A DNA stretch of 33,390 bases from Oscillospiraceae bacterium (lineage in GTDB: Bacteria; Bacillota; Clostridia; Oscillospirales; Ruminococcaceae). The notes under the pieces are model-generated. The model was not told the origin of the DNA and made no database searches. It saw nothing but the letters and a program-made list of their open reading frames with translations. The position numbers and the translations under genes are program-made. The stretch lies in NCBI GenBank assembly GCA_014799395.1, contig JAAVID010000079.1:1-33390 (forward strand), in the 5' to 3' direction. Shown one piece after another: positions 5,600 to 28,963 of this stretch; within the stretch, counting starts at the first letter, position 1; each line of letters begins with the position of its first letter.

Positions 5600-6553
5600 T
5601 TATTTTCCGCCCAAAACCGTGCCCTCGGAGAGCTTTTTTCCGCGCAGGAACGCGTCGGTCGGCATACGTTTTCCTCCCTCGGGCTGAACCTCCGTAAGCT
5701 CAACGCAGACGCCGTCTCCGCAGACCACCGAAAACGTTTTCACGTCGGCGACGGTTCCCGCGGGCAGCCCGCTCGTCAGCTCAGTCAGCCGCGAACGGTA
5801 AACCTTGAGCCGTTTCCCGTCGAGGAACGTATAGCAGCACGGCACGTCCGCCATCGCGCGGATGAGGTCGTAGACCCGTTTCGCGGGCTGCGTGAAGTCG
5901 ATGTTCAGCTCCTCCTTGGTTATCATCTGCGCGTAGCTCGGCTCGCGGCAATAGGTCTGCGCCGAGCGCACAGCCGTGCCGTTTCCGAGCCGCACGAGCG
6001 TCTCCGCGACAAGCTCCCCGCTTATCTTCGAGAGTATCCCGGCGAGCTCCGTGCCCGTCATTTCGGGCGTTATCACAACATCGCGCCGCATAATGATGTC
6101 GCCCGTGTCCAGACCCTCGTCCATCATCATCGTGCACAGGCTCGTCTCGGTCTCGCCGTCCTGTATGCAGCGCTGTATCGGCGCCGCGCCGCGGTATTTC
6201 GGCAATAACGAGGCATGAGCGTTGATACAGCCGTACCTCGGAAGCTCAAGTATCTCCTTTGGAAGTATCTGTCCGTAAGCCACGACGATTATAGCGTCGG
6301 GGTTTATTTCGCGAAGCACTCTCAGCGACTCCTCCGCGTCCTCGCCCTTTCGCAGCGAGCGCGGCTGATAAACGGGAATGTCATTCGCAACGGCGAAATC
6401 CTTGACGGGCGAGGTCATTATCTGCTTGCCGCGGTTTTTCGGCTTGTCGGGCTGCGTAAAGACCGCGCATATCTCGTTGCCGACCTCTTTCAGCACCTCG
6501 AGAGTGTTCACCGAAAACTCGGGAGTGCCCATAAAAACCAGCCTCATATTCAT
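5600..6553 (-). CDS. fmt: methionyl-tRNA formyltransferase
   Basis: Transfers a formyl group from 10-formyl-THF to initiator Met-tRNA, providing the substrate that the adjacent deformylases later undo. The 317 residues are normal for the family. N-terminal FMGTPEFSV opens the hydrolase fold. HASLLPKYRGAAPI carries Asn111 and His113 of the catalytic triad, and Asp149 follows in EGLDTGD. The C-terminal OB-like domain covers about the last 110 residues. I place the start at the ATG at 6553, which overlaps the upstream def stop (TAATG). The GAG/GAC codons of the acidic def tail double as its ribosome-binding site. MRLVFMG at 6547 is an alternative. Confidence 0.97.
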   Translation of the reverse strand: MNMRLVFMGTPEFSVNTLEVLKEVGNEICAVFTQPDKPKNRGKQIMTSPVKDFAVANDIPVYQPRSLRKGEDAEESLRVLREINPDAIIVVAYGQILPKEILELPRYGCINAHASLLPKYRGAAPIQRCIQDGETETSLCTMMMDEGLDTGDIIMRRDVVITPEMTGTELAGILSKISGELVAETLVRLGNGTAVRSAQTYCREPSYAQMITKEELNIDFTQPAKRVYDLIRAMADVPCCYTFLDGKRLKVYRSRLTELTSGLPAGTVADVKTFSVVCGDGVCVELTEVQPEGGKRMPTDAFLRGKKLSEGTVLGGK

Positions 6554-7014
6554 TACTCGTCCTCCTCTTCTTCGACCCACTCGATGACCTTATCCTCGTA
6601 CAAAATGCCGTTCAAGTGGTCGATCTCGTGACAGAACGCTCTCGCGAGCAATTCCCTGCCGCGGTACTTCACGGGTCTTCCGAAGCGGTCGACCGCCTTG
6701 ACGCGGACGTGCGAGGGGCGCTTTACGATACCGCGTTTTCCCTCGCACGAGAGACAGCCCTCGGGCTCGTACTGCCTGCCCCACATCGCGGTGATAACGG
6801 GGTTCACAAGCTCGATCTTTCCGTTTCCCGTATCAATGACGACTGCGCGTTTCAGCACCCCTATCTGTGGCGCGGCAAGCCCTATGCCCTCCGCTTCGCA
6901 CATAGTCTCGTACATATCGTCAAGCAGTTCGCAGAGCTCCTTGTCGAACCTCGTTACCTCCTCGCAGCGCTCGCGCAGAACGGGGTCGCCGAATTGCAGT
7001 ATCTCGCGTATCAT
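6553..7014 (-). CDS. def: peptide deformylase, copy 1 (downstream)
   Basis: Fe/Zn hydrolase that removes N-formyl from nascent chains. The 153 residues carry all three family motifs: GIGLAAPQIG (43-52), EGCLS with metal ligand Cys87, and HEIDH with ligands His129 and His133 and catalytic Glu130. It ends in a short acidic tail (EEEEDE) that the second copy lacks; those codons form the ribosome site for fmt. Its ATG overlaps the stop of the upstream paralog by 4 bp (ATGA). Clearly a functional-looking enzyme. Confidence 0.96.
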   Translation of the reverse strand: MIREILQFGDPVLRERCEEVTRFDKELCELLDDMYETMCEAEGIGLAAPQIGVLKRAVVIDTGNGKIELVNPVITAMWGRQYEPEGCLSCEGKRGIVKRPSHVRVKAVDRFGRPVKYRGRELLARAFCHEIDHLNGILYEDKVIEWVEEEEDE

Positions 7015-7487
7015 TTCCTGCCCTCCGCGCGTTCGGGAATGTCCTGCTTTACTCTGTCGATAAACAATATGCCCTCCAGGTGGTCGAGCTCGTGGCAGAT
7101 CGCGCGCGCCAGCAGACCGTCTCCCGTCACAGTGAACTCCTTGCCGTGGCGGTCAAACGCCTTTACCTTGACCCTCATCGGGCGCTCCACCTCGCACCAT
7201 TCGCCGGGCGCGGACAGACAGCCCTCGTTTCCGACCTGGTTGCCGTACTGCTCGACCAGCACCGGGTTCACAAGCTCGATAGCGCCCTTTCCGTCGCGTA
7301 TGTCGATAACTACCGCCCTGCGGAGCATACCCACCTGCGGCGCGGCGAGACCGACCCCGTCCGCGCTCTGCAAGGTCTCTTTCATATCGTCGAGCAGTAT
7401 GGCGAGCTTTTCGTCAAAGCTCGTTACCTCTCTGCACTTTTTTCGGAGAATATCCTCTCCGAACTTCACTATCTCTCTTAAAGCCAT
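7011..7487 (-). CDS. def: peptide deformylase, copy 2 (upstream)
   Basis: Second deformylase of 158 residues directly upstream of and translationally coupled to the first. Motifs are complete: GVGLAAPQVG, EGCLS with Cys90, and HELDH with His132, Glu133 and His136. The sequences are recognisably paralogous along their length but clearly diverged (for example SAPGEWCEVERP here against SCEGKRGIVKRP in copy 1), so this is not a recent duplication. It starts 20 bp after the priA stop, with an AGAGGAA ribosome site. Both copies belong to the short Gram-positive/type I-like class by length. Confidence 0.95.
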   Translation of the reverse strand: MALREIVKFGEDILRKKCREVTSFDEKLAILLDDMKETLQSADGVGLAAPQVGMLRRAVVIDIRDGKGAIELVNPVLVEQYGNQVGNEGCLSAPGEWCEVERPMRVKVKAFDRHGKEFTVTGDGLLARAICHELDHLEGILFIDRVKQDIPERAEGRK

Positions 7488-11161: not shown

Positions 11162-11195
11162 AAAAAAGCCGCCTTTGCGAGGGCGGCTTTTTTTA
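11162..11195. terminator. bidirectional terminator between tRNA-Thr and the acylation operon
   Basis: AAAAAAGCCGCC and GGCGGCTTTTTT flank an eight-base loop, with A- and T-runs on both sides. On the minus strand it follows the GH5-like gene stop directly. On the plus strand it closes the tRNA transcript. Confidence 0.85.
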
Positions 11196-11196
11196 T

Positions 11197-12375
11197 TTAT
11201 TCTGCGTTCGGGAACACCTTTTCGGGAATAAGCTCCGACATTGCTTTAACGGCGGGCTTTGTGAGGTCGTAGCTGCTCCAGACGTTTTCGTCCTCGCTCG
11301 GCTGCATCCATACCATTATGCCGTTCCAGCCGTTGTCGTAAACGGACTTGTACTTATCGGCGAGGGTCATTCCTATTTCCTTTTCATCGTCGTTGTGAGT
11401 TTCTCCGATAACGCACGGCTTAGCCTCCGCGAGACCGAACTCGGACGGCGATTTATCGCACGGGAATCCGAAGCTCGACTTCATCCAATTGTAATAATGC
11501 GTGCTGTAAAAGTCCAGATACGCGTTATCGCTGCCCGTAAGCTCCTTTAAATATTCGTCCGATACCTTGTTGCCCTGATATTTTTCGGAATTGTACTTTA
11601 TCATAGCCACTCCGACGGTCACGATAAAATCGCTGTTCTCGTGAATTACCGCCGCGCATTTTCCGAGCAGATACGAAATATTATCCCACGGTATCTTGCC
11701 GCATTCCTCGTTCTCGTTTACCCAGTCGGGCTCGTTCATAATGTCGACGGCGAAAATGCAGCTCCTGTCACGGTAACGCTCGCAGAACGCCCGTACATAC
11801 TTTTCCGCGAAAACGTCCGAATACTCCTTCGACTTTATCAGCCCCTGCCAGCGCTGTCCGCTCTTGACGGGCTCCTTGAAGTGGTCGAACGACAGCAGGG
11901 TCGGCATAATGTAAATGCCGTGCTTGTCGGCGAGGTCAAAGAGCTTATCCAGCGCCTCCCAGTGCGTTTCGTTGACGTTTCTTACCTTTCCGTCATCGGT
12001 AAGTCTGACTATGCTCTCGCCGTTGCAGTTGAGCCAGATACGCGTGCAGTTCACGCCGTCGGCGACGAGCCGCTCAAATTCGGTATCCCAGAACTCCTCG
12101 TCCATTCCGTCGGTGAAGTCGTTCCATTTCTGCCACGGCGTATTTGTGCCGTTTATCCACAGCTCCTTGCCGTCCGCTATGAACTTAGTACCCTCGACCG
12201 TGACCCGCGCGAGCTTCGGAGCGCTCTCGGCGTTTTCAGCGTCGGGAGTGCTTTCGGGAGCGGTATCTTCAATGGTCGAGCTTTCGACGGGACCCGTAGG
12301 AGCATTGTCACGGGCGCAGGCAGTGATATTGCAGACGACCGCCGCCGCCAGCAAAGCCGCAAGTATTTTTTTCAT
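11197..12375 (-). CDS. GH5-like glycoside hydrolase lipoprotein
   Basis: Predicted surface-anchored glycoside hydrolase of the GH5/clan A (TIM-barrel) type, resembling beta-mannanase/cellulase-like proteins. From ATG at 12375 (GAGG five bases upstream) it has 392 residues: a lipoprotein signal ending in NITAC, an acidic/Ser-Thr linker, a small beta segment (VTVEGTKFIADGKELWINGTN), then the barrel. The acid/base Glu is in DIMNEPDW and the probable nucleophile Glu in CVIGETHND. It is the last gene of the MBOAT/DHHW/FkbH/ACP operon, seven bases after the carrier-protein gene and directly before a terminator. I infer that it trims or remodels the glycan this operon modifies; its substrate cannot be read from the sequence. 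An upstream GTG-type start at 12405 is unlikely. Confidence 0.82.
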   Translation of the reverse strand: MKKILAALLAAAVVCNITACARDNAPTGPVESSTIEDTAPESTPDAENAESAPKLARVTVEGTKFIADGKELWINGTNTPWQKWNDFTDGMDEEFWDTEFERLVADGVNCTRIWLNCNGESIVRLTDDGKVRNVNETHWEALDKLFDLADKHGIYIMPTLLSFDHFKEPVKSGQRWQGLIKSKEYSDVFAEKYVRAFCERYRDRSCIFAVDIMNEPDWVNENEECGKIPWDNISYLLGKCAAVIHENSDFIVTVGVAMIKYNSEKYQGNKVSDEYLKELTGSDNAYLDFYSTHYYNWMKSSFGFPCDKSPSEFGLAEAKPCVIGETHNDDEKEIGMTLADKYKSVYDNGWNGIMVWMQPSEDENVWSSYDLTKPAVKAMSELIPEKVFPNAE

Positions 12376-12382
12376 TTCGTCC

Positions 12383-12628
12383 TCATTTCTTCGCGCGTTC
12401 GGCAACGATATTCATCATCTCGCCGACATTCTTCATACCGCTTACCTCTTTCATAGTAAACCGCATTTTGAACTCCTTCTCGACCGCCGAGATAAGCGTG
12501 ATATGCTCAAGGCTGTCCCAAGCCTCGATGTCGTCCGCGGTGGTGCTGTCCGTAAGCTCGATATGATCATCGTCGAACACATCGCGGAACACCTTTGTAA
12601 GTCTGCTCTTTACTGTTTCCTTATCCAT
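12383..12628 (-). CDS. stand-alone acyl carrier protein
   Basis: 81-residue phosphopantetheine carrier from ATG at 12628. The attachment Ser39 is in the canonical WDSLEHI context, on an acidic protein of ACP-like four-helix length. The start follows the TGA of the FkbH-like gene by one base, so the two are translationally coupled; the GTG at 12640 would lie inside that gene. This is unlikely to be the fatty-acid ACP, because no fab genes are near. Its position between an FkbH-like loader and an MBOAT operon argues for a dedicated carrier, like DltC in teichoic acid D-alanylation or the ACPs that receive glyceryl units in polyketide pathways. No phosphopantetheinyl transferase is encoded in the window. 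Confidence 0.9.
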   Translation of the reverse strand: MDKETVKSRLTKVFRDVFDDDHIELTDSTTADDIEAWDSLEHITLISAVEKEFKMRFTMKEVSGMKNVGEMMNIVAERAKK

Positions 12629-12629
12629 G

Positions 12630-14417
12630 TCAATTCTCACTTTCGTTTATTTTTATCGCCGTGGTTTTCGGCGTATAATTTGCCGTTTCAAGTCTCCACA
12701 CGGTATTGCCGCCGTCCGAGGAGGTCTGCTCAAAACCGAATTCCTTGTACAGCTCAGCCACCATGCCGTTCTTTTTGGTGGGATAATAGTACCCGATTAT
12801 TTCTTCGATACCCGCCCTTTGACATTCCTCGACGAGCCTGTCGAGCATTGCGAGCTCCATTTCTCGCTTCAGCACGCGGCAGCTCATCAGCCACAGATCA
12901 ACGTGCAGCGACTTGCCGTCCCTTTTGCCGATAACGACCGACACTATGCCGTTGTCGCCGAATTTATCCGCGAGCCTGCCGCACAGCCTGATATAACCGT
13001 TGTCGGCTGCGACAGCCTCCATTTCGGTCTGCGTGTAACGCCGAGTGGTCAGATTGAACTGATTGCTCTTGTTGGTGAGCTGGGTAATTCTGGGAATATG
13101 CACGGGGTCGAAATCGCGTATCTCGGCTTTCATCTCCAGACTTTGGAGGAAATCGCCATAGCTCGCGAACTTCTTTTCGGCAGCCGCTCTTTCGGCGTTG
13201 GCGCGGTACATCTCGCCTCTCGCCGCGTCGTCCGCGGAAAGCGACGTTACCTCAAAAAATCCGCACTTATCCAGCGCTCTGATACATTCCTCGGGGTCGT
13301 CAAAGTCGATGACCGTGACCTCGGGCAGCTGCGTGCGGACTATCTCGCGCTCGGCGGGATTATCGTCGACGAAAACAAAACTCTCGGGCAGCAGATTAAG
13401 CTCCCGCGCCGTCTCCTCGAGATTTCTCCACTTCTCCTCCCAGTTCGCCTTGATACACGCGAAATCGTCCGGGTGAAGCGCCGCGTCGGGGTGGTTGAGC
13501 CCCTCGAGCGCGTTTTCAAGATCGTTCTTCGAGCAGACCGTAAGCAGCACGCCAAGCTCCTTGTGCGCCTTGATGTACTGCTGCAAGCGCAGAAAGCTCT
13601 GCCCCTCGGAGGTCTCGCTGCCTATCTCTATGCCCGACTGCCCGTCGTCGCCGATAACGCCGCCCCAGAGCGTGTTGTCGAGATCGAGCGCGAGCACCTT
13701 TTTGTTCCTCCCCATTACCGAGCAGACGATATTCGCCAGGCTGTACGCGAACTCGGGTATCGCCGAAACGCTCATCGCGTACTTGTACAAATGCCAGTGA
13801 CGAAGCTCGTGCCAGCGCTCCAGACCGTAAGCCGCCGAAAGATAGTTGATATCGTGGATATAAAAATTCTTGTGAGACCGCGCGTAGTCGTAAAGCCGGC
13901 AGTTGAGCCGCGTGATAAAGTCGATACGCCCGTAAGCGCAGCCGACCTCGCGGTTGCCGAGAAGCCTTTCGCCCGGAAGCTCGAAGTTGTTCTGAATGAT
14001 AACGCACCCGAATTTCTCGGAAAGCGTTGTCCACATACGCTCGTAACGCTCGTATTCGCGGTTCAGCTTGTCCGCGACCGATCGATCGTCCTCGTTGACG
14101 CGCGGCTTCTCCTCGATATTGCGCGAGGTGGTGTGAATAAACACCAGCTCAGGCTTGAACTCGTCAAGCTCCTTATTCCCGAAAACCGCGTCGCTCCAGT
14201 ACTGCGCGTACTCGGATTCGTAAAAGCTCGGCGCTATCCCCCTGTCGCGGAGAAACAGCTCCAGTATCTTTATGATGTCCGAGGTCGTAGACCCGCCCAG
14301 AACCGCTATTTTAAGCGGCACCGCGCCGCTCCCGTTCTCTTTCAGAACGCGCAGCAGCTTCCTCTTTGTCTGCATTATCATATCCCCGTCAAACGGACGG
14401 CTAAGCTCAGGCAGCAT
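12630..14417 (-). CDS. FkbH-like HAD-IIIC enzyme (putative glyceryl-ACP loader)
   Basis: 595-residue three-part protein: an N-terminal SGNH-like domain (GGSTTSD near 41-47), a central HAD domain with nucleophile motif DLDNTLWGG (about 245-253) and VDDNPAE (350-356), and a C-terminal GNAT-like acetyltransferase fold (about 440-590). Family knowledge: FkbH-type enzymes take 1,3-bisphosphoglycerate, dephosphorylate it and load the glyceryl group on an ACP thiol. Here an ACP gene follows one base later, a strong functional link. Inference: it supplies the acyl group that the MBOAT and DHHW proteins of the operon transfer outside the cell. The start has GGAGG seven bases upstream. A different C3 acyl donor remains possible. 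Confidence 0.9.
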   Translation of the reverse strand: MLPELSRPFDGDMIMQTKRKLLRVLKENGSGAVPLKIAVLGGSTTSDIIKILELFLRDRGIAPSFYESEYAQYWSDAVFGNKELDEFKPELVFIHTTSRNIEEKPRVNEDDRSVADKLNREYERYERMWTTLSEKFGCVIIQNNFELPGERLLGNREVGCAYGRIDFITRLNCRLYDYARSHKNFYIHDINYLSAAYGLERWHELRHWHLYKYAMSVSAIPEFAYSLANIVCSVMGRNKKVLALDLDNTLWGGVIGDDGQSGIEIGSETSEGQSFLRLQQYIKAHKELGVLLTVCSKNDLENALEGLNHPDAALHPDDFACIKANWEEKWRNLEETARELNLLPESFVFVDDNPAEREIVRTQLPEVTVIDFDDPEECIRALDKCGFFEVTSLSADDAARGEMYRANAERAAAEKKFASYGDFLQSLEMKAEIRDFDPVHIPRITQLTNKSNQFNLTTRRYTQTEMEAVAADNGYIRLCGRLADKFGDNGIVSVVIGKRDGKSLHVDLWLMSCRVLKREMELAMLDRLVEECQRAGIEEIIGYYYPTKKNGMVAELYKEFGFEQTSSDGGNTVWRLETANYTPKTTAIKINESEN

Positions 14418-14432
14418 TTTTTGACCTCCAAA

Positions 14433-15620
14433 TTATAGTTTATCGGCGAGCTTGTACTGATTGTTGCCCGTCGCGCTGAACGAGTTCATACAGAACAGCA
14501 CGTCCGTCAAGCCCTCGTCCTTTACGAGCTGCGATATGCTTTTTTCAAAGTAGCGCATATCCACCAGCCAAATATCCTCAAACGAGTTTGCGAGACACGG
14601 CGCAAAGGCATTTCCATAGCTGTCCTTGACGATAACGAGCTTTCGTCCGTTGCCGACGTCGGTATGAACGTGCGCGACCTCCCCGTCGCCGCCGAAAAAT
14701 ACCGTATACCAGAGCACGGGCGCCATATTCTCAAGCCCCTTGAGGAACATTCCCGCCTCGTAGGGATCTTCAAGACTCTGCGTGTAATATGTTACCGTGT
14801 ATTCGTTCTTGGGCATATAGTAAGTAAACGTATCGGGATTGTTTGCCACCAACGGATTTTCGCCGCTGTAACCGTACATAGTGCCGACATAGCCCTCGAG
14901 AGTGACCGTCTCGTAGTCCGACAGCGGCGCGAACGGCACCATCGCCTCCTTCGCGAACTCCTCCGCGGCGTAATACGCGCCGAGTGGCTGCCAGTGGTGA
15001 TCCGTGCGGAAGTAAATGTTCTCACCGACGTGCTTTGACAGCGCCGTATACGCGTCCACGGGAATAACGCCGTCCAGAAAGCCGTTGAGATAGTCGATAT
15101 TATCCCATTCGCTTCCCGACATATGCGCGAGGTTATCGGGAAGATAGAACGACACCGCCGTCGGCGCTACCAGCGAGAACACGTTCACGTTGTCGCCGAC
15201 CAGCCGCTTGAGCTGATTCAGCGTCTCGGCGTAGTTCTGACCTCTTTCGTAACCGCCGCCGTACAGGTCGATAGCGCGCCCGTCGTCAAGCACCAGAACC
15301 GAGCCAGACATCTCGCCGCCCTGCTCGCCCGCCGAAACGTCGGGCTTATCGTGGGTGCTCTCCTCGGAGCTTTGCGAGCTCTCGGGAACGTCCGAGCTTT
15401 CGGCGCTTATTCCGTCCGAATTCTCCGTGCTTTCGGAGCTGTCCGATACCTCCGATTTGTCCGAGCCGCTTTCCGTACCGCTCGTCTTGTTTCCCGACGA
15501 GCCGCCTGCGGAAACGGGGTTCGGCACGGACATTCCCGAATTGCTCCCTTGATCGTTATTGCAAGCAGTAAGCGACAGCAAGATCGCCGCCGCTGCCAGA
15601 ATTGAAGCTGTCTTTTTCAT
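14433..15620 (-). CDS. DHHW/AlgX-like SGNH lipoprotein, paralog 1
   Basis: 395-residue predicted extracellular lipoprotein, from ATG at 15620 with GGGGGA upstream. Lipobox LSLTAC (Cys20) is followed by a low-complexity Ser/Glu/Gly linker to about residue 100, then the SGNH-like domain. The conserved pair is in RTDHHW (Asp207, His209) and the candidate nucleophile is Ser334 in VKDSYGNAF, the same triad spacing logic as AlgJ/AlgX acetyltransferases. The C-terminal region repeats NSFEDIWLVDMRYF and TDVLFCMNS seen in the two upstream paralogs. It lies 15 bp before the FkbH-like gene. Probable role: final transferase or esterase putting an acyl group on a glycan. The first 30 residues of the longer reading frame are not likely translated. 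Confidence 0.88.
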   Translation of the reverse strand: MKKTASILAAAAILLSLTACNNDQGSNSGMSVPNPVSAGGSSGNKTSGTESGSDKSEVSDSSESTENSDGISAESSDVPESSQSSEESTHDKPDVSAGEQGGEMSGSVLVLDDGRAIDLYGGGYERGQNYAETLNQLKRLVGDNVNVFSLVAPTAVSFYLPDNLAHMSGSEWDNIDYLNGFLDGVIPVDAYTALSKHVGENIYFRTDHHWQPLGAYYAAEEFAKEAMVPFAPLSDYETVTLEGYVGTMYGYSGENPLVANNPDTFTYYMPKNEYTVTYYTQSLEDPYEAGMFLKGLENMAPVLWYTVFFGGDGEVAHVHTDVGNGRKLVIVKDSYGNAFAPCLANSFEDIWLVDMRYFEKSISQLVKDEGLTDVLFCMNSFSATGNNQYKLADKL

Positions 15621-15721
15621 AGTATTTTCCCCCTGATAATTTTTTGAATTGCTTCTCAATAATTTAACGGATATTGAAAGTTTTTTTCTCATCTGTCCTA
15701 TTATTTCCAAGAACTCCCATA

Positions 15722-16849
15722 TTATATGATATTTATTAAATTATCCTGTTCATAGCCCGTGGCTGTGAACGAATTAACGCAAAACAGCACGTCCGTAAGA
15801 CCCTTGTCCTTTACGAACTGCGGGATACTCATTTGGAAGCCCCGCATATCGACCGCCCATATCTCCTCAAAGGAATTTGTAAGACAGGGCAGAAAGGCGT
15901 TTCCGAAGCTGTCCTTAAGGAGCAGCAGCTTTCTGCCGTTGCCGGCGTCGGTCTTGATGTGATAAGCGTCGAAATCGCCGCCGAGAAACACCCAATACCA
16001 ATACTTGATGTCGTCAAGCGATTTAAGGAACAGTCCGTCCATATCCGCGTCCGAGTAGTAGCCCTCGTTTTCCAGATCCTGCATATAATGTTCGACGGAA
16101 TATTTGTTTCTCGGCTTATAGTAAGTAAGAACGTCGGGATTATCTCCGACAAGCGGGTTCTCACCGCTCATTCCGTACATTGAGCCGACATAATCCGCAA
16201 TCGCCGCCGTTTCATAATCGGATATAGGCGCGAACGGCACCAGCGCCTCCTTTGCGAATTCCTCCGCCGCGTAATACGCGCCGAGCTGCTGCCAGTGAAT
16301 ATCGGTGCGGAAATATATCTCCTCTCCGACGTGACGTGAAAGCGCCGTATACGCGTCCACGGGTATCACCCCGTCCAAATGCTCGTTTATATACTCGATA
16401 TTATCCCACTCGCTGCCCGAATAACCGGCGTATTTATCGGGAAGATAAAACGACACCGCCGTCGGCACGACCAGCGAAAACACGTTGACATTATCGCCGA
16501 CGCGTTTTTTCAGCCGATTGAGATTTTCGGCGTAGTTCCGCCCCTCCTCGTATCCGCCGCCGTACAGCTTTAAGGCGCGCCCGTCGTTAAGGACCAGCAC
16601 GCTGCCCTCGTACAGCTCTCCCTCTTGAACATTCCCGGGTACGGTCGGCTTTTCTCGGACGGTGCTCGTGCTTTCAATATCGGAAACGCTCTCGGAAACG
16701 TCCGTGCTTTCGGAAACGCGGCTGTCCGATATGTTTTCATTTGAGCTGTCAGCGGAAACGGCAATGCTTTCACCGGAGCTCTCGGCATTACAGGCAGTCA
16801 GCAGCACGGCAGCCGTAAGCGCCCACAGCGACCAAACAGGCTTTTTCAG
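15722..16849 (-). CDS. DHHW/AlgX-like SGNH lipoprotein, paralog 2, apparent CTG start
   Basis: 375-residue lipoprotein when read from CTG at 16849. That codon gives a perfect signal (KKPVWSLWALTAAVLLTAC, Cys20) and has GGGGG seven bases upstream. The leader aligns with that of paralog 1 (GGGGGA, then start, then AAAAAG), with CTG in place of ATG. The first standard start, GTG at 16807, would leave only four residues before the lipobox Cys. The catalytic region reads RTDIHW (Asp183, His185), so the middle His of DHHW is Ile but the catalytic pair is kept. Nucleophile Ser314 is in LKDSFGNAF. The linker is Ser/Glu/Asp-rich. An internal promoter at 16881-16889 may drive it separately. Confidence 0.85.
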   Translation of the reverse strand: MKKPVWSLWALTAAVLLTACNAESSGESIAVSADSSNENISDSRVSESTDVSESVSDIESTSTVREKPTVPGNVQEGELYEGSVLVLNDGRALKLYGGGYEEGRNYAENLNRLKKRVGDNVNVFSLVVPTAVSFYLPDKYAGYSGSEWDNIEYINEHLDGVIPVDAYTALSRHVGEEIYFRTDIHWQQLGAYYAAEEFAKEALVPFAPISDYETAAIADYVGSMYGMSGENPLVGDNPDVLTYYKPRNKYSVEHYMQDLENEGYYSDADMDGLFLKSLDDIKYWYWVFLGGDFDAYHIKTDAGNGRKLLLLKDSFGNAFLPCLTNSFEEIWAVDMRGFQMSIPQFVKDKGLTDVLFCVNSFTATGYEQDNLINII

Positions 16850-16880
16850 ATATATTCCCCCTTTTTGTTATCCGCATATT

Positions 16881-16889
16881 ATTATAGCA
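16881..16889 (-). promoter_or_regulatory. internal extended -10 promoter upstream of DHHW paralog 2
   Basis: Minus-strand TGC-TATAAT (extended -10) in the 114-bp gap after the first DHHW gene. There is no good -35. The start would fall about 25 nt before the CTG codon, allowing extra expression of the distal operon genes. Confidence 0.45.
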
Positions 16890-16963
16890 CATAAATATCA
16901 AATTTTCTTTAAAAAAGTCCGAAATATTTCTTACGATTTTATGATAATCAAAGGAGAGACAAA

Positions 16964-18436
16964 TTACATTATGTTGTAAAGATTTTCCTGATTAACGCCC
17001 GTAGCGCTCGACGGGTTCATCGCGAACAGCACGTCGGTAATGCCCTCGGACTTGCACAGCTCGGTCACGCTTCTCTCGAAATAGCGCATATCCACCACCC
17101 ATATCTCCTCGAAGGAGTTTGTGAGGAACGGCGGCAGCGCGTTGCCGTAGCTGTCCTTTACTATCATCAGTCTGCGCCCGTTATGGCAGTCGGTGTTGAC
17201 GTTTACCGCGTAGTTGTCGCCGCAGATATTGACGAGATACCAGCTCACCACGTCAAGGCTGTCTATATCCAGCATAAGCGCGCCCGTGTACTGATATTCC
17301 AGCGTCTGGGTATAATAATCGGTCGTGAAATCGTTCTGCGGCTTGTAGTAGGTGAACGTCTCGGGATTGTCGCGTATAAGCTGATTTTCGCCGCTGTAGC
17401 CGTACAGCGTGCCAACATAGCCCTCGCGCGTTACCGTCACGAAATTCTCATCGTTCAGCTCCGCGAAATCAACCTGCGCCACTCTCGCGAACTCACGAGC
17501 CGCGTAGTAAGCGCCCAGCGACGACCAGTGGTGGTCTGTGCGCATAAAGATGTTCTCTGCGGTATGCTGTTCAAAAACGGAATACGCGTCTATCGGTATA
17601 ACGCCGTCGAAAAAGCTGTTGGTGTAGTCGATAACGTCCCACTCGTTGCCTGCGAGATGAGCGTACTCCTCCGGCATATAGAACGACACCGCCGTCGGCG
17701 AGACGAGCGAGTAAACGTTCACGTCGCCGAGTATCTGCTTGTACTGATTGAGCGTCTCGGCGTAGTGCTGACCGCCCGAATAGCTTCCGCCCGAAAGCGC
17801 GAGCGCGCGTCCGTCGTTCAGCACGAACACCGTTCCCGACATCATTCCGCCGTTGGGGTCTATATCCTTTATCTCGGTGCTTGTCGAAGAGCTTGTTGTC
17901 GTTGTGGAAGTTGTCGTTGAAGTCGTGGTGCTTGTTGACGATGTAGTCGTAGCGGAGCTCGACGGAGTAACGACCACGACGGGCTTTTTCGACGACGACG
18001 ATCTGCTCGAGGTGTCGGGGCGGGTCTCGATAGTCGGCAGAGGACCGTGAAGCGTTTCACCGCTGCCGTACTTTACTCCGAGATTTGCCCTGAACGCCGA
18101 GATCATACTCTTGAACGTGCTTCTCATAGGCACGGTATCGTTGTAAAATTCCGCGAACTGCTTGGTAAAATCGCCCTTGAAGTAGCTCTCAAACGTGAAA
18201 TCGGGGCATTCCGCGAGGTTGCGGTTCTCCTCCACGGATTGAGTCGGGCGTTCGCCGAACGTCATAAACAGCGCGCCGAACACGAATATCCCGATAATGA
18301 CCGCGATATTCAGACTGCAAAGGTTATTTTCGCGCCGTCTCGTCTTTGCGAGGATACGTCGTTTTTGCCGCTCCATTCTGCGCTCGCGCTCTTCCTTTTC
18401 GGCAGCGAGCTGTTTGCCGCTCTTTTTCTCAGCCAT
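16964..18436 (-). CDS. DHHW/AlgX-like SGNH protein with N-terminal membrane anchor, paralog 3
   Basis: 490 residues, the longest and most complete of the three paralogs. A highly basic cytoplasmic N-terminus (1-36) precedes one membrane helix (about 42-60). The classical DHHW N-region follows (ERPTQSVEENRNLAECPDF, then FNDTVPMR-type residues to about 125), then a Thr/Ser-rich linker (about 140-190) and the SGNH-like domain with RTDHHW (Asp301, His303) and Ser429 in VKDSYGNAL. By family it is a type II membrane protein facing outward, like AlgJ/DltD. It sits 15 bp after the MBOAT gene, the usual MBOAT partner arrangement. It probably takes the acyl group from the MBOAT, while the two lipoprotein paralogs may have other glycan targets. 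Confidence 0.9.
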   Translation of the reverse strand: MAEKKSGKQLAAEKEERERRMERQKRRILAKTRRRENNLCSLNIAVIIGIFVFGALFMTFGERPTQSVEENRNLAECPDFTFESYFKGDFTKQFAEFYNDTVPMRSTFKSMISAFRANLGVKYGSGETLHGPLPTIETRPDTSSRSSSSKKPVVVVTPSSSATTTSSTSTTTSTTTSTTTTSSSTSTEIKDIDPNGGMMSGTVFVLNDGRALALSGGSYSGGQHYAETLNQYKQILGDVNVYSLVSPTAVSFYMPEEYAHLAGNEWDVIDYTNSFFDGVIPIDAYSVFEQHTAENIFMRTDHHWSSLGAYYAAREFARVAQVDFAELNDENFVTVTREGYVGTLYGYSGENQLIRDNPETFTYYKPQNDFTTDYYTQTLEYQYTGALMLDIDSLDVVSWYLVNICGDNYAVNVNTDCHNGRRLMIVKDSYGNALPPFLTNSFEEIWVVDMRYFERSVTELCKSEGITDVLFAMNPSSATGVNQENLYNIM

Positions 18437-18451
18437 TCCCGAACACCCCCT

Positions 18452-19855
18452 TTAATAATTCCAGTACAGAAACGCGTTCGTAGTCGCGTCTACCATCAAT
18501 ATGCTGCTGGTCACGAGAAGTACCGCGCACGCCGCCGTGCCGGCTATCGACATCGCCGTTTTGGTCTCGAGCGAGCGCTCCGCGTACTTCTTCCCGAGGT
18601 CGATAAGCGGGAACGTGCATATTATCGCCACGATGATAAGCCACAGATTCGCGCTGAGCGACATAGCCTCAAACGAGCTGCTCCAGCCATTGGGATTGAG
18701 CGGCGTGATGTTGCGGAAAAACAGCCCCAGCTGCCCGAAATCCTCAAAGTAGAAAATGCCGTAGCCGATAAAAATCACGAGCTTTGTGTAAATATGCCGT
18801 ACCGCGAGAGGTATCTTGTTTATGCGCTTTTTCCCGATGACCGTCTCCAGCACGATAAACGCGCCGTAATACAGTCCCCAGATGACGTAATTCCACGAAG
18901 CGCCGTGCCATACTCCCGTGCAGAACCACACCAGAAACAGGCTGAAATACTTGTTCCTGTGACCGAAAAAGGTTATCGGCATAAGATAGTCGCGGAAGAA
19001 CGATCCGAGCGAGATATGCCACCTCTGCCAGAACTCCTGAATATCCTTGCAGAGATACGGGTGGTTGAAGTTTTCGTTGAAGTGAAAGCCGAATATTCTG
19101 CCCATTCCGATAGCCATATCGGAATAGCCCGAAAAGTCAAAATAGATATACAGCGAATATATTATGATACCGTACCAGGTGCCCGCGACGGTAAGGCTCT
19201 CGATACTTTTGCCGATAGTGTTCTCGACGATACGGAAAAGCTGATCGGCAAGCACGACCTTTTTCGCCAGTCCTAAGACCAGTCTCGTCAAGCCCTCGCT
19301 GAGGTCTTTCTTTGTGGTCTTGCGGTTGTCTATCTCCTCCGCGATGGTGCTGTAACGCACGATAGGTCCGGCGATAAGCTGCGGAAACAGGCAGATGTAC
19401 AGCAATAATTTCCAGAAGCTCCTCTGCGGCTCGACCTTTCCCCAATAACAGTCTACGATGTACGAGATGATCTGGAACGTGTAAAAGCTGATACCCGCCA
19501 TTATCACGATCTCGGGCACGGGGAATTTCGCCCCGAAAATTGCGTTGACGTTCTCCACCAAAAAGCCGCTGTACTTGAACACGGCTATCATTCCGATATT
19601 GTAGACCAGTCCGCCCCCCACGATCAGCTTTTGCAGCTTTTCGCTCTTGACCGTGCCGATACCTATGCCGACAAAGTAATTGATGACCGCCGACAGCAGC
19701 AAAAACAGTATTCTAACGGGCTCTCCCCAGGCGTAAAAGATAAGCGAAAAAACGATAAGTACGGCGTTCTTGCCCTTAAGCGGCTTTACAAGCCCGTACA
19801 CAATAAGGCAAAGCGGCAGAAAAAGATACATAAAAATAAGGCTGGAAAATATCAT
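18452..19855 (-). CDS. MBOAT O-acyltransferase (DltB/AlgI family)
   Basis: 467-residue polytopic membrane protein, with many hydrophobic helices along its length. The invariant MBOAT His is at about residue 317 in GVWHGASWN, and the conserved FWQRWHISLG loop (His about 280) precedes it. IAGPIVRYS and YFDFSGYSDMA are also typical of the AlgI/DltB branch. I chose ATG at 19855 with GGGGAG seven bases upstream; the longer TTG start at 19870 overlaps that site. It is the first gene of the operon, behind a promoter and a 140-nt leader. In DltB and AlgI this protein moves an acyl group across the membrane to an extracellular acceptor. Here the donor is likely the operon's ACP. Confidence 0.95.
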   Translation of the reverse strand: MIFSSLIFMYLFLPLCLIVYGLVKPLKGKNAVLIVFSLIFYAWGEPVRILFLLLSAVINYFVGIGIGTVKSEKLQKLIVGGGLVYNIGMIAVFKYSGFLVENVNAIFGAKFPVPEIVIMAGISFYTFQIISYIVDCYWGKVEPQRSFWKLLLYICLFPQLIAGPIVRYSTIAEEIDNRKTTKKDLSEGLTRLVLGLAKKVVLADQLFRIVENTIGKSIESLTVAGTWYGIIIYSLYIYFDFSGYSDMAIGMGRIFGFHFNENFNHPYLCKDIQEFWQRWHISLGSFFRDYLMPITFFGHRNKYFSLFLVWFCTGVWHGASWNYVIWGLYYGAFIVLETVIGKKRINKIPLAVRHIYTKLVIFIGYGIFYFEDFGQLGLFFRNITPLNPNGWSSSFEAMSLSANLWLIIVAIICTFPLIDLGKKYAERSLETKTAMSIAGTAACAVLLVTSSILMVDATTNAFLYWNY

Positions 19856-20004: not shown

Positions 20005-20033
20005 ATAATACTACATTTTCCCAAGATTGTCAA
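20005..20033 (-). promoter_or_regulatory. promoter of the MBOAT-DHHW-FkbH-ACP operon
   Basis: Consensus TTGACA (20028-20033) and TATTAT (20005-20010) with a 17-bp spacer on the minus strand. The predicted start is near 19998. Confidence 0.8.
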
Positions 20034-20119: not shown

Positions 20120-20623
20120 TTACAGTATCTCGGGATATATCTCCGCCTTGTTGAGCAGCTTCGGCAGCTTATGGCTGCCCGCGCCCTCGATATCGAAGAT
20201 GTAGGTGCGGGCGAGGTCTTCCCTTGTGCCGTCGTCCAGCACGCCGTAGCCCGTGAACTTTATCGTGAGACGCGTTTTGGTGCACTCGACCTCGGGGTCG
20301 AGCCTTGCTCTGTGGTTGTAGCGGCGGGCAACATAAAACGCGTAATCGAACATCGCCCCTTGCACCTCGGAGTAGCAATCAATAAGTTTGTCAGCGATGT
20401 TATTTGCATACCAGAAATCGGGATATTTTATGCCGTATCCGTTTGCCGCCTGCATTTCTTTTATTTCATCAATATCCGTGGAACCTGTGTAAGCGGTGTT
20501 GATATCGTAATTATCAAAATGCGGTATCGAAATATCGTACATATACGCTCCGAGCGCAGCTCCGCCCAATACCAGCACCGCTCCAATGACCGTTGACAAA
20601 ATTATCAAGATAACCTTTTTCAT
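20120..20623 (-). CDS. unknown membrane-anchored extracytoplasmic protein in sigma operon
   Basis: 167 residues. One N-terminal hydrophobic segment (about 3-27, VILIILSTVIGAVLVLGGAALG) is probably an uncleaved anchor or signal, followed by a soluble, mixed-charge domain rich in Tyr, Asp and Asn. I do not recognise the family. Its start is two bases after the stop of the anti-sigma-like gene, and a strong terminator follows, so it is the last gene of a three-gene ECF sigma operon. It may be an accessory extracellular sensor or simply a regulon member; the sequence does not decide. Confidence 0.8.
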   Translation of the reverse strand: MKKVILIILSTVIGAVLVLGGAALGAYMYDISIPHFDNYDINTAYTGSTDIDEIKEMQAANGYGIKYPDFWYANNIADKLIDCYSEVQGAMFDYAFYVARRYNHRARLDPEVECTKTRLTIKFTGYGVLDDGTREDLARTYIFDIEGAGSHKLPKLLNKAEIYPEIL

Positions 20624-20625
20624 AT

Positions 20626-21411
20626 CTACACCTCCCGTTGTCCGTAGAACGGTATCTCGCCGTCATAAACCACAAGCGAGTTTGCAAGCTCCAAGGCTCT
20701 CTCCTCGGAAAAGCTGCCGGCGAGCCTGAAAATGTAGTCCTCGCTCTCCCAAATAAGGTACGACTCCGTACCGTAATAACGTTCACGCGTAATAAAATAC
20801 GCCTGTCCGCCGTTTACCGTAAGCTGTTTGTAGGCAACAAACTCCATATCGGCATACTCAAAATCAAACGTTTCCTTGGTGCTCTGATCCAAAGTTATTA
20901 TTTTTGCCATATACAGCTCGTCATTTTTGGGTACACGCATTGAACCGTCATAATCCGGTTCCCAGGGAGCGGGAAAATACGTCGACGATATTCCTACTCC
21001 GGAGTCGTAATCGTAGTCGTAGTTGTAAGCGGAGATGCTGAACTGATTCATAGGAAAACCGTCGAGCCTATATACCGTCTCAATGGTAGTCGGACAGTCC
21101 TCGGTATCGGCAGCGGTAAACAGCTTTGTCGGCAGACTATAACGCTTTGACTGCACGACATTAAATCCGCTCGACACCGCCCCCGCAAGCGTTCCCACCG
21201 CGAACAGCGCGACCGCGGCAGCCACGGCGGCAAACACCCTGACGATACGCATTCCCTTGGGTCGTTTCCTGCCGGCGGGCTCTCCCGTGCGCTTTGACAG
21301 CTCCGCCATATTCTTCTCGAACTCCGCCGAGAACTCGTGCTCCGCGCCGTTTTCAAAGCGTTCGATATCCTTTTGCATAACGTTTTCAAGCGCAGTTTTA
21401 AAATTATTCAT
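20626..21411 (-). CDS. putative transmembrane anti-sigma factor (DUF4367-like)
   Basis: 261 residues. The N-terminal cytoplasmic part (about 1-55, rich in Glu and Lys) would hold the sigma factor. One membrane helix follows (about 57-80, VFAAVAAAVALFAVGTLAGAV), then an extracellular domain. The C-terminal DYIFRLAGSFSEERALELANSLV resembles the DUF4367 domain found on Firmicutes anti-sigma-like proteins. The gene overlaps the sigma factor by 8 bp, which supports a 1:1 regulatory pair. The signal it senses is unknown. Confidence 0.78.
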   Translation of the reverse strand: MNNFKTALENVMQKDIERFENGAEHEFSAEFEKNMAELSKRTGEPAGRKRPKGMRIVRVFAAVAAAVALFAVGTLAGAVSSGFNVVQSKRYSLPTKLFTAADTEDCPTTIETVYRLDGFPMNQFSISAYNYDYDYDSGVGISSTYFPAPWEPDYDGSMRVPKNDELYMAKIITLDQSTKETFDFEYADMEFVAYKQLTVNGGQAYFITRERYYGTESYLIWESEDYIFRLAGSFSEERALELANSLVVYDGEIPFYGQREV

Positions 21412-21898
21412 AGCTTACCTCCTTCAAGAATTCGGAAACCTTCTTCCGTGCGCGCTTTACGCGCGACTTGGCATTCTCGTAAGTAATTCCGAGCAGCTTT
21501 GCCGCCTCGCGCAGACTAAGCTCCTCGTAAGCCGTAAGGTACAATATATCGCGATATTTTTCGGGAAGGCTCTCGAGCGCCCGTTCGAGCGTTTCAACGC
21601 CCTGCGCCGACAGGAACTCGTCCTCGGCGCTTTTGTCCGAGCACACGTCCACGTCGTCAATATCCGTCTCGATATGCCGCTTTCGCAGCACGTTAAAGCA
21701 GATATTCCGCGTGACAACAACGGCGAAATTCCGCGCCTGCGGACTGTCCGCGCCGGCTATCTTTTCCAGATTATCGGCTAACCTTATAAACGCCTCCTGA
21801 ACGGCGTCCTCAGCGTCCTGCTCGTTTTTCAGAATATCGTACGCTATCCCGAACATAAGCCGCTTGTAGTTTTTGTACAGCTTTTCAAATTCCGCCAT
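21404..21898 (-). CDS. ECF RNA polymerase sigma factor (sigma-70 family)
   Basis: 164 residues, the usual two-domain size. Region 2 contains the core-binding and -10 recognition helix DAEDAVQEAFIRLADN. A short acidic linker (DIDDVDVCSDKSAEDEF) leads to region 4 with the helix-turn-helix LSLREAAKLLGITYENAKSRVKRARKKV. ATG at 21898 has GAGGGGTG five bases upstream. It is coupled to the anti-sigma-like gene by an 8-bp overlap. A single extended -10 element lies just upstream (21916-21924). The target promoter motif cannot be told from here. Confidence 0.93.
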   Translation of the reverse strand: MAEFEKLYKNYKRLMFGIAYDILKNEQDAEDAVQEAFIRLADNLEKIAGADSPQARNFAVVVTRNICFNVLRKRHIETDIDDVDVCSDKSAEDEFLSAQGVETLERALESLPEKYRDILYLTAYEELSLREAAKLLGITYENAKSRVKRARKKVSEFLKEVSYE

Positions 21899-28864: not shown

Positions 28865-28913
28865 GCTAGTGTAGCTCAGTCGGTAGAGCAGCGCATTCGT
28901 AATGCGCAGGTCG
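28865..28913 (+). pseudogene. 5' fragment of tRNA-Thr(CGU)
   Basis: 49 nt identical to the first 49 nt of the complete tRNA at 29807: acceptor 5' strand, D-arm, anticodon arm with CGT, and variable loop. The identity stops one base into the T-stem, after which unrelated sequence leads to the VOC gene. No 3' half or CCA is present. Confidence 0.85.
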
Positions 28914-28933
28914 TGTGTACTCAATAAGGAGAC

Positions 28934-28963
28934 GCGGCTACGGATCGCAAGTCTTGCAGATTT
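28934..28963 (+). repeat. direct repeat, left copy, flanking the VOC/DUF3795 pair
   Basis: 30 bp matching 29704-29733 at 27 positions, with the last 17 (GCAAGTCTTGCAGATTT) identical. It contains the small palindrome GCAAG-T-CTTGC. Confidence 0.75.

Follow-up and report, generated by a model that had tools for sequence, protein, structure and literature searches.

Which acyl group would a membrane acyltransferase export when its operon also encodes an FkbH-type enzyme and an acyl carrier protein (ACP)? This question is raised by a seven-gene run on the minus strand of contig JAAVID010000079.1 (Oscillospiraceae bacterium, GCA_014799395.1), the whole 33,390-nucleotide stretch of which is referred to here as the window. 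From position 19855 down to 11197, the run encodes an acyltransferase of the MBOAT family, three DHHW-family SGNH proteins, FkbH, the ACP and a mannanase-like lipoprotein, with intergenic gaps of 15, 114, 101, 15, 1 and 7 nucleotides. All seven genes lie where the initial annotation had placed them in one minus-strand operon, and profile scores confirmed their families. The operon probably encodes an MBOAT-SGNH surface-acylation system that is charged by its own carrier, the donor being a C3 acyl-ACP made by FkbH, most likely glyceryl-ACP. The evidence consists of the genes themselves, the fact that they are conserved together, their catalytic motifs and a PatA-like tail in the model of the MBOAT. 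As judged from the chemistry of its family, the substrate of FkbH would be an activated acyl phosphate of three carbons, 1,3-bisphosphoglycerate being the likeliest, from which the HAD domain would strip the distal phosphate; Cys513 would hold the glyceryl group and then pass it to the phosphopantetheine arm of the ACP. The MBOAT, via His317, would collect this group from the cytosolic ACP and place it on Tyr464 of its own extracellular C-terminal tail. Finally, the catalytic serine of a DHHW protein would accept the group, which would then be joined by an ester bond to a hydroxyl on a glycan outside the cell.

The loading step is represented by two adjoining genes. FkbH (12630..14417, minus strand, 595 amino acids) scores 285 bits with TIGR01686 (cut-off 146.65), and its N-terminal domain scores 50.2 bits with PF21211 (cut-off 27). 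The window shows the sequence features of an FkbH loader, namely the domain, the HAD nucleophile motif (DLDNT, residues 245-249), a conserved Cys and an adjacent ACP. Cys513 is the sole invariant Cys in a ten-row FkbH alignment and would be the residue that carries the acyl group; among 125 FkbHs, DLDNT is present in 117 and SCR in 124. The ACP (12383..12628, minus strand, 81 amino acids) bears its carrier serine in a WDSL motif and scores 21.5 with the PP-binding profile (cut-off 20.8), and WDS is kept in all 116 profile-recognised ACPs. Comparisons were made with a set of 100 relatives' genomes and a phylum sample of 398 genomes, both including the window's own, with 38 annotated relatives' FkbH loci (37 fetched, plus the window), and with 80 named loci, which were chosen as the best FkbH matches from at least 593 stretches, 579 of them encoding relatives. 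An ACP lies within 150 nucleotides of FkbH in 36 of the 38 relatives' loci and in 69 of the 80 named loci.

The genome of the window contains one FkbH and three PP-binding matches, including the ACP of the operon. Its best match to DltA reaches 87.3 bits, below the cut-off of 559.85, and a PF04914 match, indicative of DltD, is absent from it. Since the genome has neither DltA above the cut-off nor a DltD match, the proposal of the initial annotation that a HAD loader stands in for the adenylating DltA is plausible at the sequence level. An ordinary Dlt operon is ruled out, as the DltA and DltB equivalogs remain below their cut-offs and DltD has no match. The two systems also differ in layout: the Dlt pathway uses DltA, carries the acyl-shuttle motif on the DltX microprotein and employs DltD, whereas here FkbH is present, the motif is fused to the MBOAT, and the partners are SGNH proteins of the DHHW type.

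The MBOAT (18452..19855, minus strand, 467 amino acids) scores 86.7 bits with PF03062 (cut-off 27). His280, His317 and Tyr464 are invariant across 28 aligned MBOATs, and the protein thus has both the catalytic His (His317) and the C-terminal acyl-shuttle Tyr (Tyr464) of Pat/Alg-type systems, the latter within the tail FLYWNY. PatA is reported to acetylate the Tyr of its own C-terminal FXYXXF motif, and a peptide with this motif, once acetylated, can serve as a donor for PatB (Anderson and colleagues, PMC12148441). In the AlphaFold model of the window MBOAT (mean pLDDT 89.4) the C-terminus forms a long, a short and another long helix (394-412, 417-425 and 429-454), followed by the low-confidence tail with Tyr464, which is the helix-helix-helix-tail layout described for PatA (PMC12148441). 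The top PDB fold match of the model is DltB (TM 0.60), and with the NCBI equivalog model for DltB the protein scores 163.4 bits, below the cut-off of 375. The operon had been annotated as Dlt-like, but in its fused acyl-shuttle tail the MBOAT resembles PatA and not DltB. Since fused-motif systems are described, in the accessible parts of that literature, as working without a carrier protein, yet the ACP belongs to this unit, the system appears from the model to be a hybrid that joins a PatA-like fused tail to a Dlt-style carrier of its own. The window genome encodes two MBOATs. Elsewhere, one stretch (L232, 6554-12347) contains a pair of MBOAT genes that score equally with the profile and both lie between frames of 82 and 303 amino acids, which looks like a recent tandem duplication.

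The three SGNH partners all match PF14286 well above its cut-off of 25, so that the second Pat/Alg-type feature, an SGNH partner with catalytic motifs, is also found. Protein a (16964..18436, 490 amino acids, 137.4 bits) is AlgX-like and has an N-terminal membrane-anchor region, and proteins b (15722..16849, 375 amino acids from a CTG start, 126.7 bits) and c (14433..15620, 395 amino acids, 151.8 bits) are lipoproteins with the lipobox LTAC; all are encoded on the minus strand. In the frame of protein b the first ATG, GTG or TTG is a GTG at 16807 (361 amino acids), which removes the lipoprotein signal. Starting at the CTG at 16849, which is the most likely start judging from the sequence, would give protein b this signal. 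The same gene starts with ATG in one near relative (L056) and is a broken remnant in another (L050), so that the window copy, with its CTG, may be decaying. Across the linked loci the D-x-H-W motif is present in all 49 DHHW proteins and the serine motif K/R-D/N-S-Y/F/M in 42 of them, the seven misses including L035 with GDSY in this position. The genome encodes four DHHW proteins, of which the three annotated ones lie in this operon. The triplet itself is a variable expansion, with one to four DHHW proteins of more than 300 amino acids per operon in 26 DHHW-type operons. A shorter DHHW-matching frame also occurs in 12 of 27 MBOAT-containing loci. In the two that were aligned (L035, 6845-7210, and L044, 6935-7297) it comprises the N-terminal anchor region alone and is followed by a separate SGNH protein, which suggests that the anchor is separable from the catalytic part. 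In L070, the second DHHW gene of the genome (7117-8328) has many unresolved residues (X) in the assembly.

The DHHW proteins are also related to a solved structure. Protein c matches PDB 4NZK (Eubacterium siraeum EUBSIR_00411), likewise a DHHW protein, with an E-value of 6.5e-84, and 4NZK has been described as solved but not biochemically characterised (PMC9487903). Its best two matches among the fetched loci, with 61.5% and 59.5% identity, are DHHW proteins of DHHW-DHHW-FkbH-ACP operons, and among the matches listed the best 25 all come from FkbH-bearing loci, two of which are duplicates. In the DHHW tree 4NZK falls inside a 54-row group that contains all 48 linked rows (support 98).

Do these parts belong together, or do they merely adjoin each other? 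FkbH is found above the cut-off in 38 of the 100 relatives' genomes versus 14 of the 398 phylum genomes. An MBOAT lies within the fetched stretch in 27 of the 38 relatives' FkbH loci, and 26 of these 27 also contain DHHW. A profile of the linked MBOATs, run over the 100 genomes, finds 30 genomes at 703 bits or above and every other match listed at 563 bits or below. Within the genus of the window (43 genomes) FkbH is present in 26 genomes and the high-scoring MBOAT clade in 25, all of them inside the FkbH set; in the lone congener with FkbH but without the clade (G009) the contig ends inside the operon, and the clade occurs in none of the 17 congeners without FkbH. The corresponding Fisher p of 4e-11 is inflated by close kinship, and it is the pattern instead that carries weight. 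Outside the genus, one genome that is 55% complete (G058) has the linked MBOAT clade without FkbH, and in another (G057) the MBOAT stretch lacks the DHHW-DHHW-FkbH genes, which lie on another contig. In a first MBOAT tree 26 of 27 linked rows cluster together with one contig-broken row, and in a second all 34 FkbH-linked rows form one clade (support 100), which also includes the rows of G057 and G058. Clustering of the flanking genes over 29 loci revealed no universal extra partner.

These data bear on the alternative that the MBOAT and the DHHW proteins constitute an ordinary acetyl-CoA O-acetyltransferase, while FkbH and the ACP belong to a different metabolite pathway and are only housed in the same operon. 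MBOAT-DHHW pairs are often found apart from FkbH and make up 39 of 42 congener MBOAT stretches picked away from FkbH matches; a sister pair of this kind is present in eight congeners, all without FkbH; and FkbH-ACP occurs without an MBOAT in the stretch, for example in L034, L045, L059 and L067. However, the unlinked stretches had been selected for their distance from FkbH matches, so that the absence of FkbH there reflects the selection, and the genus table is therefore the fair test of coupling. There, presence of the linked MBOAT clade in a genome follows that of FkbH. The FkbH-less sister pairs fall outside the linked group in the MBOAT tree (8 rows). Looking for MBOAT and DHHW genes without FkbH had been proposed as a check on the coupling; such pairs do exist, but their MBOATs lie outside the linked clade. 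Moreover, a polyketide or other end-use enzyme is not found among the seven proteins of the operon, and divergent MBOATs (L068, L197 and L219) are linked to FkbH-ACP in different arrangements, which together make this alternative unlikely.

Indeed, the association extends well beyond a single gene order. Among the best 80 named loci an MBOAT is present in 66 (31 with DHHW and 35 without), whereas five have DHHW without an MBOAT and nine have neither. Under a stricter rule (near and on the same strand) the MBOAT is retained in 60 of the 80, being downstream of FkbH in 18 of the 60, and F.Y..F ends 56 of these 60 MBOATs. The order MBOAT-DHHW-FkbH-ACP is found in the isolates Ruminococcus flavefaciens 007c and Neglectibacter sp. 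X58, and FkbH-ACP-MBOAT in Eisenbergiella tayi DSM 26961 and Butyrivibrio sp. XPD2002. In L068 an ABC transporter pair precedes FkbH-ACP-MBOAT, in L138 the MBOAT, a GDSL-like protein (match below Pfam's cut-off), FkbH and the ACP lie inside a glycosyltransferase cluster, and in L218 an AlgX-type protein follows the MBOAT. The MBOATs of R. flavefaciens and Neglectibacter are 55 to 57% identical to that of the window, whereas those of L068, L197 and L219 share only 24 to 30%, indicating that MBOATs of different lineages have been joined to FkbH-ACP; that of L068 sits on a long branch far from the linked clade. Chance adjacency is ruled out by the neighbourhood counts and the genus co-occurrence. 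With MBOAT clade and FkbH co-occurring almost perfectly in the genus, and with at least three gene arrangements, the claim that the parts are coupled stands, and it is well supported that FkbH, ACP, MBOAT and SGNH protein behave as one unit.

The nature of the acyl group is addressed by the genes around FkbH. In some FkbH loci, genes for a MaoC dehydratase, an SDR reductase, a methyltransferase or a split transketolase lie close to FkbH or separate it from the ACP. Five kinds of such tailoring genes were sought within 4.5 kilobases of FkbH and on the same strand in 131 loci, including five duplicates. They were found in 14 of 37 loci with an MBOAT but without DHHW and in 13 of 30 loci with neither, but in none of the 64 DHHW loci, the window included (59 after removal of the five duplicates), so that in the DHHW type the product of FkbH would be expected to be exported unaltered. 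That the unit works as proposed but with an acyl group other than plain glyceryl (lactyl, O-methylglyceryl or a longer hydroxy acid) is suggested by the DHHW-less cousins, 27 of 67 of which carry tailoring genes, and dehydration followed by reduction would convert glyceryl to lactyl, so that glyceryl-ACP may be turned into lactyl-ACP in some of these loci. For the window, the absence of such genes from every DHHW-type locus makes a modified group improbable.

Where the acyl group would end up is a further question. Polysaccharides are the substrates of those DHHW and AlgX proteins that have been characterised, according to the consulted parts of PMC9487903, and related loci adjoin glycosyltransferases or an ABC transporter pair, both of which argue for a glycan. 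The opposing possibility, that the acyl-ACP is destined for a lipid, a lipoprotein or a secreted small molecule, could draw on the lipoprotein signals of two DHHW proteins and the mannanase-like protein and on the lack of a glycosyltransferase in the operon, but on this balance it is very unlikely. The mannanase-like lipoprotein (11197..12375, minus strand, 392 amino acids) has Glu residues in NEP and GET motifs. The annotation as GH5-like was right as to its presence and place; its closest sequences are beta-mannanases (3vup, E 4.3e-22), and its sole Pfam match, Apiosidase, is borderline (26.6 versus 26.5). Only the window, L050 and L056 have a recognised copy of the gene, which was found neither in 13 phylum loci nor in the 80 named loci. 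As a core part it is out, and within the set to which it had been assigned it is an accessory of three genomes.

Several observations weigh against glyceryl surface acylation by this unit. The tail FLYWNY is not strictly FXYXXF, as its last F is replaced by Y. Four of the best 80 named loci have DHHW, FkbH and ACP in a full stretch without an MBOAT, and 11 of the 38 relatives' FkbH loci lack an MBOAT in the stretch. Of the latter, L046 and L051 are DHHW operons broken by contig ends, and L053 is probably a third, as MBOAT and DHHW genes of the same genome lie where another contig (L236) ends; the others show FkbH-ACP in other settings, some on short contigs, with L062 having FkbH without a recognised ACP. 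The trees disagree on the FkbH-less sister pairs, which in the DHHW tree fall inside the linked group (4 rows, support 85). The FkbHs of DHHW loci do not form one clade, a single origin being ruled out by the AU test (p 0.0005), so that FkbH and MBOAT did not simply co-diverge. Given the MaoC, SDR or transketolase genes of related loci, FkbH products may not stay glyceryl there. Finally, neither a polysaccharide synthase nor an acceptor polymer is visible in the operon.

The signals around the operon are consistent with a single unit, if weakly. A sigma-70-like promoter, TTGACA-17-TATTAT (20005..20033, minus strand), matches at 11 of 12 positions and sits between a terminator-like stem (20113-20086) and the MBOAT start. 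The promoter that had been annotated is thus present as a match, although such matches are about as frequent in this region as expected by chance (11 versus a shuffled mean of 8.1, sd 2.8), so that its assignment rests on position. A second terminator-like stem closes the operon (11162..11193); it is given here for the minus strand, the program lists it on the plus strand, and T-rich flanks occur on both. A possible internal extended -10 promoter, TGCTATAAT (16881..16889, minus strand), spotted by eye, precedes the second DHHW gene. Just upstream of the operon (20120-21898) are genes for a sigma-70-family factor, a DUF4367 protein and a 167-amino-acid protein without a Pfam match, the last two being recognised only in the same three loci as the mannanase-like gene. 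Elsewhere in the window, two peptide deformylase genes lie side by side with a slight overlap (6553-7487), and a weak tRNA match by Rfam (28865-28953, 34.6 bits) was not called by ARAGORN.

How does the unit relate to known systems? PatA/PatB, AlgI/AlgJ/AlgX and PatA1/PatB1 share with it an MBOAT with a C-terminal Tyr motif and an SGNH partner, PatB1 being a DHHW-family protein, as far as the accessible descriptions go (PMC12148441, PMC9487903), but these O-acetylation systems differ from that of the window, which includes FkbH and an ACP. The clostridial ccsZABHI, a cellulose locus with a proposed O-acetylation pair, likewise combines a GH5 hydrolase, an MBOAT and DHHW in one locus, according to the consulted parts of PMC7710045. 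The window adds FkbH and ACP, and its hydrolase is mannanase-like and was found in three genomes only; a cellulose synthase-like gene corresponding to the GT2 protein CcsA was not found, as no glycosyltransferase family matched the seven operon proteins or the 19 other scanned window proteins. By contrast with the tetronate and methoxymalonyl pathways, where FkbH and an ACP give glyceryl-ACP, a polyketide synthase and a FabH-like tetronate enzyme are absent from the window operon, where the apparent consumer is a membrane acyltransferase instead. In the accessible literature FkbH and MBOAT appear together for cyanobacterial peptides, each being held responsible for its own portion of the structure, and MBOAT-SGNH systems, as described there, use acetyl-CoA or carrier-bound D-alanine. 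A published description of an FkbH-ACP-MBOAT-SGNH unit was not recognised in the literature searched, which reached few subscription journals.

It is about an even chance that the ACP stage acts as a workbench, giving plain glyceryl in the DHHW type and lactyl or otherwise tailored hydroxyacyl groups in its cousins, within a widespread FkbH-ACP-MBOAT-SGNH class of gut Clostridia that draws a glycolytic acyl phosphate into extracellular esters without an adenylation step. If the proposed system is real, alkali-labile glycerate or other hydroxy acids, of which we found no report, are predicted on the envelopes of gut Clostridia. The kinship with the linked operons may then hint at a function for the solved 4NZK. 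MBOATs with a fused tail would also accept acyl groups from a carrier protein, and the feeding of 1,3-bisphosphoglycerate into the unit would tie surface chemistry to glycolytic flux.

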